Shown here in pieces: positions 57,476 through 62,067 of a stretch of DNA of 64,000 nucleotides. Within the stretch, counting starts at the first letter, position 1. Every line of letters begins with the position of its first letter. Made by a program: the position numbers and the translations under genes. The notes under the pieces were generated by a model that was given only the letters and a program-made list of their open reading frames with translations, did no database searches and was not told the DNA's origin. Origin of the DNA: Comamonas koreensis. GTDB taxonomy: Bacteria > Pseudomonadota > Gammaproteobacteria > Burkholderiales > Burkholderiaceae_C. Location: contig NZ_CP043575.1 in NCBI RefSeq assembly GCF_014076495.1, positions 1,364,001 to 1,428,000 of the forward strand. Reading direction: 5' to 3'.

Positions 57476-57877
57476 TCAAGCCTCAGGCAGCTGGTACACA
57501 AAGCGGTAGGAATGCTGGCCGTTGTCGATCGTGATCTGCATGCTGCCGCGCAGGCCCTGCAGTGCATCGGTGGCCGAATCGGGTACGACGCTGATGCTTT
57601 GCGTGGACTCGCCCTGCGCCATGCTGGCGCTGTGCTGCAGCACAAAGGTGCCGCTGCGGCCATGCAGGCTGCCTTGCACGTGCTCCATCGCCACATAACC
57701 GGCCGAGCCGGCGGTCGTGCTGCGGAACGACAGCATTTCGCCCTGGCTGGTCGCCTGCAGGTCGCCGCTGAATTGTTTGTCCAGCGAGAACCGGCCCAGG
57801 CCGGTGGCCTCGGCAACCGGGCTCAGGCCTTCGGGTTGCAGCTTGATGTCAAAGCGTCCGGTGGCGATGTGGTCCAT
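57476..57877 (-). CDS. DUF3224 domain-containing protein
   Basis: A 133-residue cytoplasmic protein that matches DUF3224 over its full length: ATGRFDIKLQPE, GRFSLDKQFSGDLQATSQGEMLSF, GSAGYVAMEHVQGSLHGRSGTFVLQHSASM, ISVVPDSATDALQGLRGSMQITIDNGQHSYRFVYQLP. The fold resembles allene oxide cyclase-like small barrels. Function is not known. It is a single gene with about 150 bases upstream, which also contain a long GC hairpin (57977-58008: CGGGGCA with TGCCCCG and inner CCCGTC/GGACGG) that may end the sigma/anti-sigma transcript. Confidence 0.88.
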   Translation of the reverse strand: MDHIATGRFDIKLQPEGLSPVAEATGLGRFSLDKQFSGDLQATSQGEMLSFRSTTAGSAGYVAMEHVQGSLHGRSGTFVLQHSASMAQGESTQSISVVPDSATDALQGLRGSMQITIDNGQHSYRFVYQLPEA

Positions 57878-58024: not shown

Positions 58025-58240
58025 TTAGTTCTCCGAGGAGGGCTTGGCGGGCGGGTTCGGTGGCGTTTGCAGATGATCGCTGTAGCCCTTGAGCATGTCT
58101 TGCAGCGCCTGGTCATTGCGCGTAAAGGCGCGGCAGCGAAAGCAGATCATGCGGTGCTGCCAGGCGGCGATTTTGCCGGCCGTGCCGGCCTCTTCCATTT
58201 GCCCGGTGGTAAGTTGAAAAATGTATTCACGGCATTTCAT
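58025..58240 (-). CDS. Zinc-finger anti-sigma factor
   Basis: A 71-residue soluble protein with the ZAS motif HxxxCxxC at His29, Cys33 and Cys36 (WQHRMICFRC), plus Cys3 near the N-terminus, which can complete a zinc site. Such small cytoplasmic anti-sigma factors release their sigma partner when the zinc centre is oxidised or displaced by metals. The ATG overlaps the stop of the ECF sigma gene by four bases, so the two are made together. It ends the bufferin-type operon. Its pairing with sigma and the buf genes resembles the Neisseria RpoE/MseR arrangement, from memory. Confidence 0.83.
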   Translation of the reverse strand: MKCREYIFQLTTGQMEEAGTAGKIAAWQHRMICFRCRAFTRNDQALQDMLKGYSDHLQTPPNPPAKPSSEN

Positions 58241-58806
58241 GAAGCAGTCTCTTTGTCAAACCAGTTTTGGTGCAGGCACAGCTGCAGCTGCTTGCGCGCG
58301 CGGCTCATGCACTGCCAGTAATCGGCCTTGGTGATGCCCAAGGTGCTGCAAATCTCCTCGGCCTCGCATTCCAGAAACTCCTTCATGGAAAACACCCGCG
58401 CTGGCTTGGCCGGCAGCTTGTGCACACACAGGTCGACGACGATGAAGAACTGGTCGTTTTGCAGCTGCTGCTGGGGGTTGACCCAGGTAGTGGGCGCAAC
58501 GCCCTCAACCCAATGGCCCCGCTTGTCAAACAGGACTTGGTCGAGGTCGTCCTGGAAAGCCTCGTCATAGCTCACGGGCGCGCGGTATTTCTGTCGCAGC
58601 CGGTCGCTGATCTTGTTGCGCAAAATGCCAAACAGGTAGCTCTTGGCCTGGGCGGCGTCAAAGCTGCTGCGGTCCAGCTGCAGCAGCGCCGCCAAGGTAT
58701 CTTGCACGGCATCCTCAGCCTCTTCACGCGAGGGCAGGTGCAGCATTGCAAAGCGCAGCATGGCGCTGCGCCATTGGACGGTGATCTCTGCTGCGATGGT
58801 GTGCAT
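58237..58806 (-). CDS. ECF RNA polymerase sigma factor
   Basis: A 189-residue extracytoplasmic-function sigma factor. Region 2 reads MLRFAMLHLPSREEAEDAVQDTLAALLQ...AKSYLFGILRNKISDRLRQK; region 4 reads RVFSMKEFLECEAEEICSTLGITKADYWQCMSRARKQLQLCL. A region of about 50 residues between them contains VNPQQQLQNDQFF. It is followed by its anti-sigma factor (ATGA overlap) and preceded by doxX, 12 bases away. It probably directs transcription of the bufferin operon in response to metal or redox stress; this is inferred from context. Confidence 0.9.
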   Translation of the reverse strand: MHTIAAEITVQWRSAMLRFAMLHLPSREEAEDAVQDTLAALLQLDRSSFDAAQAKSYLFGILRNKISDRLRQKYRAPVSYDEAFQDDLDQVLFDKRGHWVEGVAPTTWVNPQQQLQNDQFFIVVDLCVHKLPAKPARVFSMKEFLECEAEEICSTLGITKADYWQCMSRARKQLQLCLHQNWFDKETAS

Positions 58807-58818
58807 ACACTCCTTTGC

Positions 58819-59283
58819 TTATCGATGGCAACAACGGTCCAGGGACCAGCGGCCCGGCCCCTGGCTGACAATGGCGACCAGCATGATGCCCAGCATCAAG
58901 GGCACCTTGAAGCCCAGGCCGTCATCGCTGTCGATCTGGTTCCAACCGGCCCAGCCCAGGTCGAAATGCACGCTGTACACCGCCACATAGGTGATGAAGA
59001 TCAGCCCCAGCGCGGCAATGCGCGATGCCAGCCCGATGATCAGCGCCACGCCCAGCACCAGCTCGGCAAGCCCTGCAATGCCCCAGTTGAGGCTGGCAGG
59101 CAGCCAGCTCACCGGAATGGGAAAGTCCAGGCCTGCAAACCAGGCCGGTGCCTCCCAGCCCGATGACAGTTTACGAAAACCCGCCAGCACAAACTCCTGC
59201 CCCACCCACAGGCGCAGCAGCAGCAGACCCAGGCCATCAATCTTCTCGCGTGCTTTCACGTGCAATGAATTCAAGGAATGCAT
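58819..59283 (-). CDS. DoxX family membrane protein
   Basis: A 154-residue protein with four transmembrane helices and DoxX features: LLLLRLWVGQEFVLAGFRKLSSGWEAPAWFAGL in helix 1 and the following loop, NWGIAGLAELVLGVALIIGLASRIAALGL in helices 2-3, and a final helix at PLMLGIMLVAIV. DoxX proteins are regular members of bufferin and gig-type metal-stress operons. Its start lies 47 bases inside bufC; a GTG eight codons later (before KAREKIDGL) is an alternative. The molecular role is not known; a redox function at the membrane is proposed for the family. Confidence 0.87.
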   Translation of the reverse strand: MHSLNSLHVKAREKIDGLGLLLLRLWVGQEFVLAGFRKLSSGWEAPAWFAGLDFPIPVSWLPASLNWGIAGLAELVLGVALIIGLASRIAALGLIFITYVAVYSVHFDLGWAGWNQIDSDDGLGFKVPLMLGIMLVAIVSQGPGRWSLDRCCHR

Positions 59284-59518
59284 CTTTCATATCTCCATAG
59301 TAGGGCGAGCTCCAGCGCGAGTCGCGCACAAAGGCGGTGATCAATTCCCGCCAGGCCTCGTCGCCCAGTTGCTCGCGCAGTTCCGGAAAATGCGCCTCCA
59401 CCATCTGGCTGGCGCCCAGGTGGACCAGGTGGCGGTAGGCACGCATGCCGTTGTCGCTGTAACCCGCAGGCACCTGGTCGGACAGACCTCTTACATAGTC
59501 GTAGAAGTGCGCAGACAT
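59237..59518 (-). CDS. bufC: Short BufC/HvfC-type partner protein (DUF2063)
   Basis: A 93-residue protein matching only the N-terminal DUF2063 domain of BufC/HvfC proteins: FYDYVRGLSDQVPAGYSDNGMRAYRHLVHLGASQMVEAHFPELREQLGDEAWRELITAFVRDSRWSSPYYGDM. Standard BufC is about 250 residues and carries a second, peptide-binding domain that is absent here; the coding region instead runs into doxX. BufC partners work with the MNIO enzyme to modify the precursor. The ATG lies 28 bases inside bufB. Truncation or a natural short form cannot be told apart from sequence alone. Confidence 0.8.
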   Translation of the reverse strand: MSAHFYDYVRGLSDQVPAGYSDNGMRAYRHLVHLGASQMVEAHFPELREQLGDEAWRELITAFVRDSRWSSPYYGDMKDAFLEFIARESTRED

Positions 59519-60273
59519 GCCAGCTCCTGGTTGATGACCTCCATACCGGGGACATCGTTGTCCCATTCCAGCAGCACGGGGGTGCCATGGCGCTCGGCAA
59601 GGCTGCGTGCGAGCTGCTGGGTGTGTGCTTCCACCGGCTGGCTGTGCGTGTCCATGAACAGGTCAAAGCGCGCATCGAACTCATGGCCCGCCACATGCAT
59701 GTAGCTCACGCGGCCCATGTCCAGGCCTTGCACGAATTCGCTCGGGCTGGGGCCGCCATGGTTCTTGTGGTTGACCGACAGGTTGTTCAGGTCCAGCAGC
59801 AGATGGCAGTCCGCCTGGTCGAGGACCATGCCGAGAAAATCCGCTTCGGGCATCGCGCCCACATTGGTGTACCAGGTCGTGTTCTCGACCGCGATGCGCA
59901 TGCCCAATGCATCTTGCACGACGCGGATGCGGTCGGCCACCCGGCGCGCATGTGACTCGGTAAAAGGCACGGCAAACAGGTCATAGAGCTGGAAGCTGTC
60001 GCCGCTGGCGGCCAGGTGGTCGGAGTACAGCGGGGTGCCCAGGTCATCAATCAGCTGGCGCAGATCGCGCAGAAAGGACCTGTCCAGTGGTGCGGCGCCG
60101 CCCAGATTGAGGGCCACGCCATGCAGGTTGACCGGGCGTCCCGAGTCGATCAGCGCCTGCAGCGGCGCCAGATCCCGGCGCACCCAGTTCTCGGGTGCGA
60201 CCTCAAAGAAGTCGGCATGCACGGCGGACATGTCCCAGTCGAGCATTTCACGTCGAAAGCCAAGGCCAATCAT
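59491..60273 (-). CDS. bufB: MNIO-family enzyme BufB (DUF692), multinuclear iron oxidase
   Basis: A 260-residue TIM-barrel enzyme of the MNIO (DUF692) family that uses two or three iron ions and O2 to rework cysteines in peptide precursors. Metal-ligand motifs are in place: NLHGVALNLG (His51), YSDHLA (Asp85, His86), AVENTTWY (Glu130), LLLDLNNLSVNHKNHG (Asp161, Asn163-164, His169), YMHVAGHE (His193, His197), MDTHSQPV (Asp208, His210) and LLEWDND (Glu236). It is closest in pattern to BufB of bufferin operons; MbnB-type and TglH-type relatives lack this neighbourhood. It overlaps bufC and follows a small exported protein gene. Likely cytoplasmic. Confidence 0.92.
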   Translation of the reverse strand: MIGLGFRREMLDWDMSAVHADFFEVAPENWVRRDLAPLQALIDSGRPVNLHGVALNLGGAAPLDRSFLRDLRQLIDDLGTPLYSDHLAASGDSFQLYDLFAVPFTESHARRVADRIRVVQDALGMRIAVENTTWYTNVGAMPEADFLGMVLDQADCHLLLDLNNLSVNHKNHGGPSPSEFVQGLDMGRVSYMHVAGHEFDARFDLFMDTHSQPVEAHTQQLARSLAERHGTPVLLEWDNDVPGMEVINQELACLRTSTTM

Positions 60274-60331
60274 GTGGTGTCCTCATTTCTGTGGAGGCAC
60301 GAGTTGGCGCTTGGCCAACCCGCATCCAACG

Positions 60332-60667
60332 TTACTCTCCAAAGCTGTCACCCTGTGGCAAGGTGCCGGCCATGCGGGCCTGGGAAGCGGCCTCGATGAC
60401 CTGGGCACGGCTCAAGCCCATGCCGGGTTGCTGGGTTTTGAACTGCGGCGCATCAAAATTGCCGTCGAAACGCAACGTGCCGTCCATGCGGGCCTGGGTG
60501 AACTGCATCCGGACCTGGTCGCGGCTGAGGCTGCTGTTGGAGGGGGCATAAGCCGGGTAGTCCGAGCCGTTGCCCACGGGGGCGGTGCTCATGGCCTGGG
60601 CGCTGCCGGCAAAGGCCAGGCTGGCGGCCAGAAGAAGACGGGTAGTGATCTTGGTAGTGGTCGACAT
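60332..60667 (-). CDS. Small exported Cys-free protein in the bufferin operon
   Basis: A 111-residue protein with a clear Sec signal peptide (TRLLLAASLAFAGSAQA, cleavage near residue 25). The mature part has two related blocks, SLSRDQVRMQFTQARMDGTL and LSRAQVIEAASQARMAGTL, resembling the SR.QV.AEL..AR..G pattern of small DUF4148-type periplasmic proteins of Burkholderiales. It has no cysteine, so it is not an obvious BufB substrate. AAGGG lies upstream of the ATG. It sits between the precursor gene (78 bases) and bufB (58 bases) on the same strand and is probably co-transcribed. Its role is unknown. Confidence 0.75.
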   Translation of the reverse strand: MSTTTKITTRLLLAASLAFAGSAQAMSTAPVGNGSDYPAYAPSNSSLSRDQVRMQFTQARMDGTLRFDGNFDAPQFKTQQPGMGLSRAQVIEAASQARMAGTLPQGDSFGE

Positions 60668-60745
60668 GGTTGGAACCCTTTCTGTGGTGGGGGCGGGTGA
60701 GCGTGGAGGCTCACCCTGGTGTTGTGTGGTGTGTTACGGAGTGGG

Positions 60746-60973
60746 TCAGTGGGTACCCGCGCCATCCTTCTTGGAGCAGCCGCCGTCCTTCTTGGAGCAA
60801 CCGCCGTCCTTCTTCGAGCAGCCGCCATCCTTCTTGGAGCAGTTGGCGTCCTTGGTGCTCGATTCCTTCTTGCCGCAGCTGCCTGCGCCGCATTTGCTGT
60901 CCTGGCTGCCAGCGGCCCAGGCGGAGGTGGCGAGGACAGCGGCGGCCAAGGTGGTGAGGGTCTTGATGTTCAT
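60746..60973 (-). CDS. bufA: Bufferin-type RiPP precursor with CSKKDGG repeats
   Basis: A 75-residue precursor. A Sec-type signal (MNIKTLTTLAAAVLATSAWA) serves as export signal and leader. The mature part has six cysteines: KCGAGSCG, similar to the KCGEGKCG motif of BufA proteins, then four tandem heptads (N/G)CSKKDG. In this family BufB/BufC convert cysteines into sulfur heterocycles that bind copper in the periplasm. The heptads are encoded by four 21-bp DNA repeats. AGGA precedes the ATG; an upstream in-frame ATG at 61024 is unlikely. It is the first gene of the operon. An AT-rich stretch (61048-61080) upstream may be the promoter. Confidence 0.85.
   Translation of the reverse strand: MNIKTLTTLAAAVLATSAWAAGSQDSKCGAGSCGKKESSTKDANCSKKDGGCSKKDGGCSKKDGGCSKKDGAGTH
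60765..60848 (+). repeat. Four tandem 21-bp repeats inside bufA
   Basis: Units start at 60765, 60786, 60807 and 60828, each beginning TCCTTCTT followed by GAGCAG-type sequence, with a few base changes. On the minus strand each encodes one CSKKDG(G) heptad. The last unit departs from the others at its 3' end (GTTGGCG), where the peptide reads ANCSKKDG. Confidence 0.9.
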
Positions 60974-61370
60974 GGTGTCGTTCCTGTGATGAAAGGTTGA
61001 AAGTGCACAGCACAGCGCTGCCACGTTGATGAAGTCGTTCGACCTGATCGATTCCTGACATATTTTTGAAAATATTTATCGAGACCGCCAAAAAAAGCAG
61101 GCGCAAGGCTGCGCCCGCCCTGCCAAAGTGGCCAGGGTGTGGATGTTTTCAGGGAGAGTGAGTGCTGCTGGTGCTGCGGGCTAGCAACTAGCTAGTGGCT
61201 GCAGAGCTCGCGCCCATGGCATGGAAGCGGATAGCGATGAGGCACAAGGCGTTTTTTGGAAGGCGAGCCGTAGTCATGGCCAAGGCTGACCATGCAGCGG
61301 GTCAGCAGGGCCGGCGTTCAGACTGTAGCGGGGCGCATGGCAGAGGGCGCCTGGGGCAGACCCGAGAGCG
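60974..61370. other. Non-coding region upstream of bufA, with tetR terminator
   Basis: About 400 bases between the tetR stop and bufA start, both minus strand. On the minus strand GGCGCAG and TTGCGCC pair near 61099-61115 and run into seven T (61090-61096), a terminator for tetR. Next comes an AT-rich stretch (AAATATTTTCAAAAATAT) and the candidate bufA promoter. I could not identify a firm ECF promoter motif. Confidence 0.55.
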
Positions 61371-61994
61371 TCAGGGCTGCAGCTGCGGATCGAGCTGCAG
61401 CTGCAGCAGCGCGCCGGCGATCAGCGCATGCATGCCCTGGGCCAGATCACCTTCCATCTCGGCGGTCTCAGCCTCGTAGCTGGTGGGCACCACGCTCTCC
61501 TGGCGCGCGGCCGAGTACACCGAATCGGCAGCGGCCAGGCCGTGGAAGGCGATGGTCGCCAGCAGCCAGCGCGACTGCTCTTTGCCAATGCGGTAGGCCT
61601 GCGCCACTTCTTCCTGGTGGGTATCGATCTTCTCGAGCATCGCCGGGGTGGCGACCAGCCTGCGGATCACATAGGGCGTCACGCCCGGGTAGGTCTTGGC
61701 GAACTGGCGCACCGAATCGCTGAAGCGGACCAGGTAGTTCTGCAGGCCCTCTTGTTCGCCCACCTTGGGCAGAGAAAACTCCCAGCGCCGAAAAATCTCC
61801 TCGGCCACCATGTGCTTGAGCTCGGCCAGGCTGGGCACATGCTTGTACAGCGCCATATGCGTCACGCCCAGCGTGCTGGCCACGCCCACAAAGGTGATGT
61901 TGGGCAAGCCCATCTCGATACCTGCATCGGCGATGCGCTCTTGCGTGATCAGGCGCGGGCGCCCGCGCGGGGCTGCTTTTTTCTCAGGGTCCAT
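61371..61994 (-). CDS. TetR/AcrR family transcriptional regulator
   Basis: A 207-residue regulator. The N-terminal helix-turn-helix reads RPRLITQERIADAGIEMGLPNITFVGVASTLGVTHMALYKHVPSLAELKHMV, with the Tyr-Lys-His anchor of TetR proteins; the all-helical C-terminal region (about 70-200) is the ligand-binding and dimerisation domain. GGAGAGAAC directly before the ATG at 61994 decides this start over one 11 codons upstream. A dyad operator candidate (62068-62090) lies 74 bases upstream. The divergent gene it probably controlled is now the broken TonB receptor at 62118. Confidence 0.9.
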   Translation of the reverse strand: MDPEKKAAPRGRPRLITQERIADAGIEMGLPNITFVGVASTLGVTHMALYKHVPSLAELKHMVAEEIFRRWEFSLPKVGEQEGLQNYLVRFSDSVRQFAKTYPGVTPYVIRRLVATPAMLEKIDTHQEEVAQAYRIGKEQSRWLLATIAFHGLAAADSVYSAARQESVVPTSYEAETAEMEGDLAQGMHALIAGALLQLQLDPQLQP

Positions 61995-62067
61995 GTTCTC
62001 TCCAGGTGCCAGGCCATTGTCAGCCAAACCGCTGCTGCGATAGCTGTAAAAGATGTACGGTAATTTA

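Follow-up and report, generated by a model that had tools for sequence, protein, structure and literature searches.

An operon of the captophorin kind in Comamonas koreensis whose MNIO partner is a DUF2063 domain without an RRE

What does a peptide-modifying enzyme work with when half of its usual partner protein is missing? This question is raised by a locus of Comamonas koreensis that lies in a 64,000-nucleotide stretch of contig NZ_CP043575.1 (assembly GCF_014076495.1, forward-strand positions 1,364,001 to 1,428,000), referred to here as the window, whose numbering is used throughout. Between positions 58025 and 60973, a run of seven genes on the minus strand encodes a Cys-rich precursor, a DUF4148 protein, a multinuclear nonheme iron-dependent oxidative enzyme (MNIO), a DUF2063 partner, a membrane protein of the DoxX family, an extracytoplasmic function (ECF) σ-factor and a ZAS anti-σ factor. 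An original prediction had proposed this run, and all of its genes were confirmed by position and by Pfam and NCBIfam matches; its view that an exported Cys-rich precursor, MNIO, DUF2063 protein, DoxX and ECF/ZAS pair form an operon of the bufferin/oxazolin (captophorin) kind is upheld as well. The operon is of a known kind, and the new part is a lineage whose partner protein lacks the RiPP recognition element (RRE). Our best explanation, which we consider probable, is that stress induces this operon, that its product is a metal-binding peptide of the captophorin (5-thiooxazole) kind, derived from Cys and located in the periplasm, and that the lineage has lost the RRE. The features seen in the sequence that underlie this explanation are the gene content, the invariant MNIO residues, the DUF2063-only partner, a clade-wide signature and a conserved ECF-type promoter.

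The partner protein and its lineage

Partners of the HvfC/BufC family combine a DUF2063 half with an RRE half, and the majority are 250–260 residues long (PMC12452194); for thiooxazole-making MNIOs, the published description of the partner is a fusion of a DUF2063 domain with an RRE that may be full or partial (PMC13419390). The window partner is 93 residues long. PF09836 covers it almost end to end, and it aligns only to residues 23–92 of the 249 in the gonococcal partner, 3DEE. Because the DoxX start precedes the stop codon of the partner gene, there is no room for an RRE remnant. The AlphaFold2 model of the partner (92 residues, the first Met omitted; 41-row alignment) has five helices and no strand, with a pLDDT of 89.4. 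A Foldseek search with this model gave no match at E 0.001, the two best being 3DEE (probability 0.97) and MbnC in 7DZ9 (0.66), both weak (E 0.8–0.9). Thus, the DUF2063 domain that the original prediction assigned to this protein is present, but the protein corresponds to no more than the N-terminal half of an ordinary HvfC, which had gone unnoticed: where the PME1 partner of a captophorin operon comprises DUF2063 plus an RRE, the window partner comprises DUF2063 only.

The DUF2063-only partner without an RRE is a lineage trait. This was assessed in 100 distinct MNIO loci, including the window, that were chosen by similarity to the window MNIO (30 from a search of genomes of the family, 29 from the order, 29 from the class and 12 others). 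Measured from the start of the domain to the stop codon, the partner has 90–101 residues in 22 of these loci, the window among them, and is far longer in the other 78: 209–299 residues in 63 and 224–313 in 15. The latter 15, CKG-type and other partners, were missed by a profile built from short partners and were measured with a long-partner profile, which recovered all of them at full length. The length of the stop-to-stop reading frame was dropped as a measure, since several clade partners of about 90 residues sit in frames of 160–436 residues. A tree built from the 100 MNIOs places the 22 short-partner loci (hereafter the clade) together on one side of a single branch, with a support of 100/100 and recovery in 100% of 200 bootstrap trees. 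A survey that did not depend on similarity to the window, made by DUF2063 family match alone, covered 200 genomes from the window's order and found 134 matches in 95 of them. Of the 130 that were measured, one has 88 residues and belongs to the window clade (genome G371), one has 170 and 128 have at least 220, with a median of 250; outside these measurements stand the window itself, which is short, two matches at contig ends and one weak match below the family cut-off. A protein database search returned 161 relatives of the short partner, and the 120 listed are 82–95 residues long. As this search admits only proteins of 51–163 residues, its result establishes that short forms are common but cannot speak to the absence of long ones. 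Named sources of these relatives include Comamonas, Aquabacterium and Methylophilus, and one of the short proteins is named by NCBI as an HvfC/BufC family peptide modification chaperone.

Clade MNIOs were found in eight of 299 genomes of the family, at an identity of at least 57% in seven (G000, G137, G241, G263, G086, G057 and G259) and 45% in the eighth (G093), and in three of 399 genomes of the order (the window, G371 and G625). Among 369 genomes of the class, 68 gave a match, loci were examined in 30 of these, and only the window exceeded 50% identity. The genus of the window was represented by three other genomes, none with an MNIO match at E 1e-20. Genome G137 holds two clade operons (L120 and L116), one with and one without ECF and anti-σ genes.

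Does an RRE reside elsewhere in these genomes? The window genome encodes one MNIO and one DUF2063 protein, and neither of two RRE profiles, A2 (mostly from EGKCG-type partners) and A3 (mainly from CKG-type partners), matched anything in it at E<=0.1. A2 matched all three genomes of its own type (G412, G496 and G583), matched G259 only marginally (E 0.013 and 0.021) and gave no match in G137, G241, G263, G086 or G057. A3 matched G259, G371, G625, G311 and G321, all of which hold full-length partners, and had no match in six of the nine other clade genomes (G137, G241, G263, G086, G057 and G093, the last only 55% complete), where the DUF2063 proteins are of the clade type only. A separate profile of the RRE part matched 62 of 63 loci, but these were the loci used to train it, so the result carries no weight. 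Judged from these searches, help from an RRE in trans appears possible in some relatives and finds no support in the window genome.

Clade signatures in the precursor and the MNIO

The window precursor reads MNIKTLTTLAAAVLATSAWA-AGSQDSKCGAGSCGKKESSTKDAN, followed by four C-S-K-K-D-G-[GA] units. The heptad is encoded by a tandem array of 21-bp units at 60760–60853 (4.5 copies, 86% matches). As in captophorin operons, a Cys-rich precursor with a predicted signal peptide, the latter judged from sequence alone, adjoins the MNIO gene, with one DUF4148 gene between them in Comamonas. The precursor matches no Pfam or NCBIfam family at E<=0.1, DUF2282 included, and it contains no EGKCG, the motif of the Buf_EGKCG/oxazolin precursors, but a single KCG ahead of its repeats. 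C[SA]KK[DE] heptads are common to precursors across the clade, and a CGAG[ST]CGKK-like block is present at 19 of the 22 loci, with variants at L007, L009 and L045. Among precursors from the database, all 53 have three to seven C[SAG]KK units and 52 have CGA..C[GSA]KK. Locus L122 (G259:C1:113000-125500) carries two CSKK precursors, one before the MNIO gene and one after the anti-σ gene; no relative of the window ECF factor was found in this 12.5-kb locus, the anti-σ gene being the only one of the σ/anti-σ genes there. CSKK was found in none of the open-access MNIO or RiPP papers listed for it; the supplements of PMC12452194 and PMC13097082 lay outside the search and may list such precursors unnamed.

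Two further features of the precursors bear on recognition. Where the partner is long, 39 of 54 precursors contain an F..L..GY segment, which all 22 clade precursors lack; its loss as a counterpart of RRE loss is only suggestive, given that 15 of the 54 long-partner precursors lack it too. At an MNIO identity of 60–72%, the first 26 residues of the signal peptides are 50% identical within the clade, 36% among EGKCG loci and 47% among CKG loci. The conservation in the clade would agree with direct recognition of the signal peptide but is no proof of it.

The MNIO belongs to the HvfB/BufB/FonB group, as expected of a captophorin operon, with HvfB the nearest of the NCBIfam models. Its nearest named relatives are a protein of Comamonas sp. 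(97%) and one of C. koreensis (90%). Residues invariant in all 100 MNIOs, including E24, H51, H86, E130, D161, N163, H193, D208, H210, E236 and D238, are present in the window enzyme. This agrees with the original claim of intact metal ligands, in that the MNIO literature suggests that some of these residues are ligands. The clade stands apart at the residue following E236. Trp occupies position 237 at 22 of 22 clade loci and in all 120 database homologues listed, whereas the position is Arg in 47 of 47 EGKCG-type and 12 of 12 CKG-type MNIOs. W237 was ruled out as a mark of the RRE-less state by four of the 78 other MNIOs, which have Trp there and full-length partners. At position 239, 116 of the 120 homologues listed have Asn and four have His. 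By alignment, D238 would correspond to FonB Asp249, the proposed base, and N239 to Phe250, which affects specificity and whose variants still made 5-thiooxazole (PMC13097082). Beyond the presumed catalytic Asp, clade MNIOs are shorter than the others (median 22 versus 33 residues). At three loci (L017, L021 and L028), MNIOs with an EWDD motif lie beside a frame of about 480 residues and a full-length partner; there, the MNIO perhaps acts on a large protein.

Regulation, gene neighborhood and known systems

The features of the operon are collected in Table 1. The genes for the MNIO, partner and DoxX protein overlap end to start, as do those for the σ- and anti-σ factors, and the layout recurs in relatives, so it is not due to chance. 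The operon proteins missed the NCBIfam equivalog cut-offs for HvfB (235.6 of 360 bits), BufB (198.1 of 310) and HvfC (62.6 of 142). A DUF3224 gene (PF11528, E 8e-41) lies at 57476–57877 on the same strand, 147 bp downstream of the anti-σ gene, and a TetR-like regulator with only weak NCBIfam matches is encoded upstream of the operon, also on the same strand, at 61371–62027.

Table 1. Coordinates and assignments of the operon features in the window
Feature	Position	Strand	Details
Predicted ECF promoter, GTCAGGAAT-N13-CGAC	61034–61059	-	-35 at 61059–61051, -10 at 61037–61034
Precursor, 75 aa	60746–60973	-	Signal peptide, KCGAGSCGKKE block, four CSKKDG[GA] heptads, 6 Cys
Exported Cys-free DUF4148 protein, 111 aa	60332–60667	-	PF13663 E 1.6e-10, 41.7 bits (cut-off 27)
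MNIO (HvfB-like), 260 aa	59491–60273	-	PF05114 E 4.4e-70; EWDN at presumed catalytic Asp
DUF2063-only partner without RRE, 93 aa	59237–59518	-	PF09836 E 3.5e-14
DoxX/HvfX-family membrane protein, 154 aa	58819–59283	-	PF07681 E 1e-15; NCBIfam HvfX (NF050144) 88.3 bits, curated cut-off of 80 passed
ECF σ-factor, 189 aa	58237–58806	-	TIGR02943 182 bits (cut-off 162.2)
Small ZAS anti-σ factor, 71 aa	58025–58240	-	C3, H29, C33, C36; NF052368 E 3e-5, below cut-off

The pattern GTCAGG-N15/16-CGAC lies upstream of the precursor gene at 17 of the 22 clade loci; in 500 single-base shuffles it appeared at a mean of 0.01 loci and a maximum of one. It is present at 16 of 16 loci with an ECF gene and one of six without (Fisher p 2e-4, with the related species not independent), and at nine of nine versus one of six (p 0.002) after near-copies were removed. 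The window match ends 60 bp before the precursor start codon. The motif resembles the Neisseria σE promoter, reported as -35 GTMAGBWTT and -10 CGTCTAAH with a spacer of 12–13 (PMC2893595); in meningococci, σE expression was unchanged by oxidative stimuli (PMC2893595). A wider regulon was considered and rejected: of the strict matches in the window genome, six fall within long frames, another is that of the operon itself, and the last (L114), 9 bp before an epimerase-like gene, looks like chance. Among the 22 wide loci, σ and anti-σ genes are found in 15 and DoxX in 18. The anti-σ factor, encoded next to the ECF gene, has its Cys and HxxxCxxC residues spaced as in RsrA and MseR (C4, H30, C34 and C37 in the latter), which suggests a ZAS protein of the MseR/RsrA type.

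Among known systems, oxazolin (HvfABCX of Haemophilus) and fontiphorin (FonABC) share with the window a Sec-signal Cys-repeat precursor, an HvfB-like MNIO and a DUF2063 partner, and the hvf operon also has HvfX/DoxX. In contrast to their EGKCG repeats, clade precursors combine CSKK heptads with a single CGAG[ST]CGKK-like block; the RRE half is missing from the clade partner, ECF and ZAS genes are present in most clade operons, and the clade MNIOs have EWD(N/H) where most EGKCG enzymes have ERDF. The Neisseria NMB2140-2145/gonophorin (ngo) operon is alike in joining MNIO, DUF2063 partner, DoxX, ECF factor and ZAS anti-σ factor (MseR), with similar -35 and -10 elements, but differs in its full-length partner (3DEE, DUF2063 plus RRE) and EGKCG precursor. 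Four loci of a Neisseria-like family, which we infer to belong to the Neisseriaceae, hold DoxX, MNIO, a full-length partner, σ and an MseR-like gene, with DoxX upstream of the MNIO. The ECF/anti-σ pair of the original prediction is therefore real but not new, being known from NMB2140-2145 and these four loci.

Bufferins 1 and 2 and the gig operons share the core of precursor, MNIO, DUF2063 protein and DoxX, and some Buf1 operons have ECF genes. The more specific assignment of the window to a bufferin or gig operon fails: no DUF2282 match, the precursor family of bufferin 1 and gig, was obtained at E<=0.1, and the BufB equivalog cut-off was missed. Inspection, rather than a Buf2 profile, revealed no resemblance to the 6/12-Cys precursors of bufferin 2, and Buf1 operons use NrsF where the window has a small ZAS protein (PMC12452194). 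The extra secreted protein, once thought to set the operon apart, does not: a DUF4148 gene lies beside the MNIO gene in the window and at four Comamonas loci, and at none of 18 other clade loci, so that it has no support as a functional partner outside Comamonas. With five DUF4148 matches in the window genome, it is probably a lineage-specific, Comamonas-only passenger rather than a core component; no paper on a DUF4148 system with copper was found in the available open literature. The variant form that had been claimed does exist, but the departure lies in the RRE-less partner and the clade-specific precursor and active-site signature, both previously unnoticed. PME-type 1 partners are reported as full-length chimeras within a narrow size range (PMC12452194). 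PME-type 2 short partners (DUF2063-like alone) resemble the window partner in being helical and without a full RRE, yet they are reported with precursors that lack signal peptides and without the Pfam DUF2063 signature (PMC12452194), both of which the window has. No account of a DUF2063-only PME1 with signal-peptide precursors was found in the available open literature, although Fig. 6b of PMC12452194 may show a minor short class.

A proposed route without the RRE, its alternatives and its meaning

Most likely, no RRE takes part in converting the precursor Cys residues to thiooxazoles, and copper is the metal bound by the exported product; we infer both the chemistry and the metal. Under this model, stress would release the ECF σ-factor from its ZAS anti-σ factor and the σ-factor would transcribe its own operon. 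In the cytoplasm, the MNIO and its bound DUF2063 domain would convert Cys residues in the CGAGSCG block and in the CSKK heptads into 5-thiooxazoles, an oxidation that removes four hydrogens per Cys. The DUF2063 domain alone would supply cofactor activation, and recognition, without an RRE, would rest on the conserved signal peptide, the CGAG[ST]CGKK block or both. Sec would then export the peptide, perhaps assisted by DoxX/HvfX, and the peptide would sequester copper or a similar soft metal. In Haemophilus, activity and the mixed-valent diiron state both depend on HvfC, and an HvfA precursor that lacks its signal sequence undergoes hardly any modification (PMC13419390). PME1 partners have been suggested to pair with Sec-signal precursors, perhaps masking the signal peptide (PMC12452194), and the recognition sequence of DUF2063-linked RREs has been called ambiguous (PMC12710340). 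If the roles of HvfC map to DUF2063 (cofactor) and RRE (recognition), the clade has kept the first and lost the second. The stronger proposal, that this is an RRE-independent class of Sec-exported MNIO RiPPs in which DUF2063 alone activates the iron cluster, the MNIO/DUF2063 pair directly recognizes the signal peptide, CGAG[ST]CGKK or both, and EWD(N/H) is adapted to C-S-K-K, strikes us as evenly poised.

Several observations weigh against an RRE-less captophorin route. Ordinary full-length DUF2063-RRE partners, which may act in trans, are additionally encoded in G259, G371 and G625, three of the nine other clade genomes. An RRE may be too diverged for both profiles; A2 by itself missed the full partners of G371 and G625. 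CKG-type signal peptides are nearly as conserved as those of the clade (47% versus 50%), yet their partners are full length. Neither the ECF gene nor DoxX is universal, as six of 22 loci lack the former and four of the 22 wide loci the latter, and the strict promoter pattern is not enriched across the window genome (eight matches versus 22 for a reversed control). The locus could thus be an ordinary oxazolin/EGKCG-type captophorin operon working by the same mechanism, with the RRE function provided by a diverged domain, a full-length partner elsewhere or the MNIO surface; the nearness of the MNIO to HvfB, the KCG-like first motif of the precursor, the Neisseria-like regulatory module and the three genomes with full-length partners all speak for it. 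We regard it as quite unlikely, however, as neither profile found an RRE in the window genome, nor A3 in six of nine other clade genomes with only clade-type DUF2063 proteins (allowing for the incompleteness of G093), and as partner, precursor and EWD motif have changed together clade-wide, in company with the absence of F..L..GY, a segment that some long-partner precursors lack as well.

The product could also differ. The Trp that replaces Arg beside the presumed catalytic Asp, or the Ser that follows Cys in the precursor, could signify another modification, and the MNIO would then make a Cys product other than 5-thiooxazole on C-S-K-K sites, with W237 marking the altered chemistry. The constancy of W237 in the clade and of Arg in EGKCG and CKG enzymes favors this idea, as does its position next to the residue aligned with FonB Asp249, whose own neighbor affects specificity; but E236 and D238 are invariant, Trp recurs in MNIOs with full-length partners, and the FonB Phe250 variants retained 5-thiooxazole formation, so that we consider it rather unlikely. 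Highly improbable, in our view, is a precursor that works unmodified as a small metallothionein-like periplasmic scavenger while the MNIO acts on something else. The exported peptide is rich in Cys and Lys, and unmodified precursors have been considered possible for genomes without an MNIO (PMC12452194), but the gene for the CSKK precursor lies directly upstream of the MNIO gene in clade loci and one gene away in Comamonas.

If an RRE-less captophorin route is indeed what this lineage uses, then nature has separated the two jobs proposed for HvfC. Since the lineage keeps signal-peptide precursors but only the DUF2063 half of the partner, substrate binding and cofactor activation become directly testable apart from one another. 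The clade would thereby offer a smaller enzyme pair and a ready-made test of the role of the RRE half.

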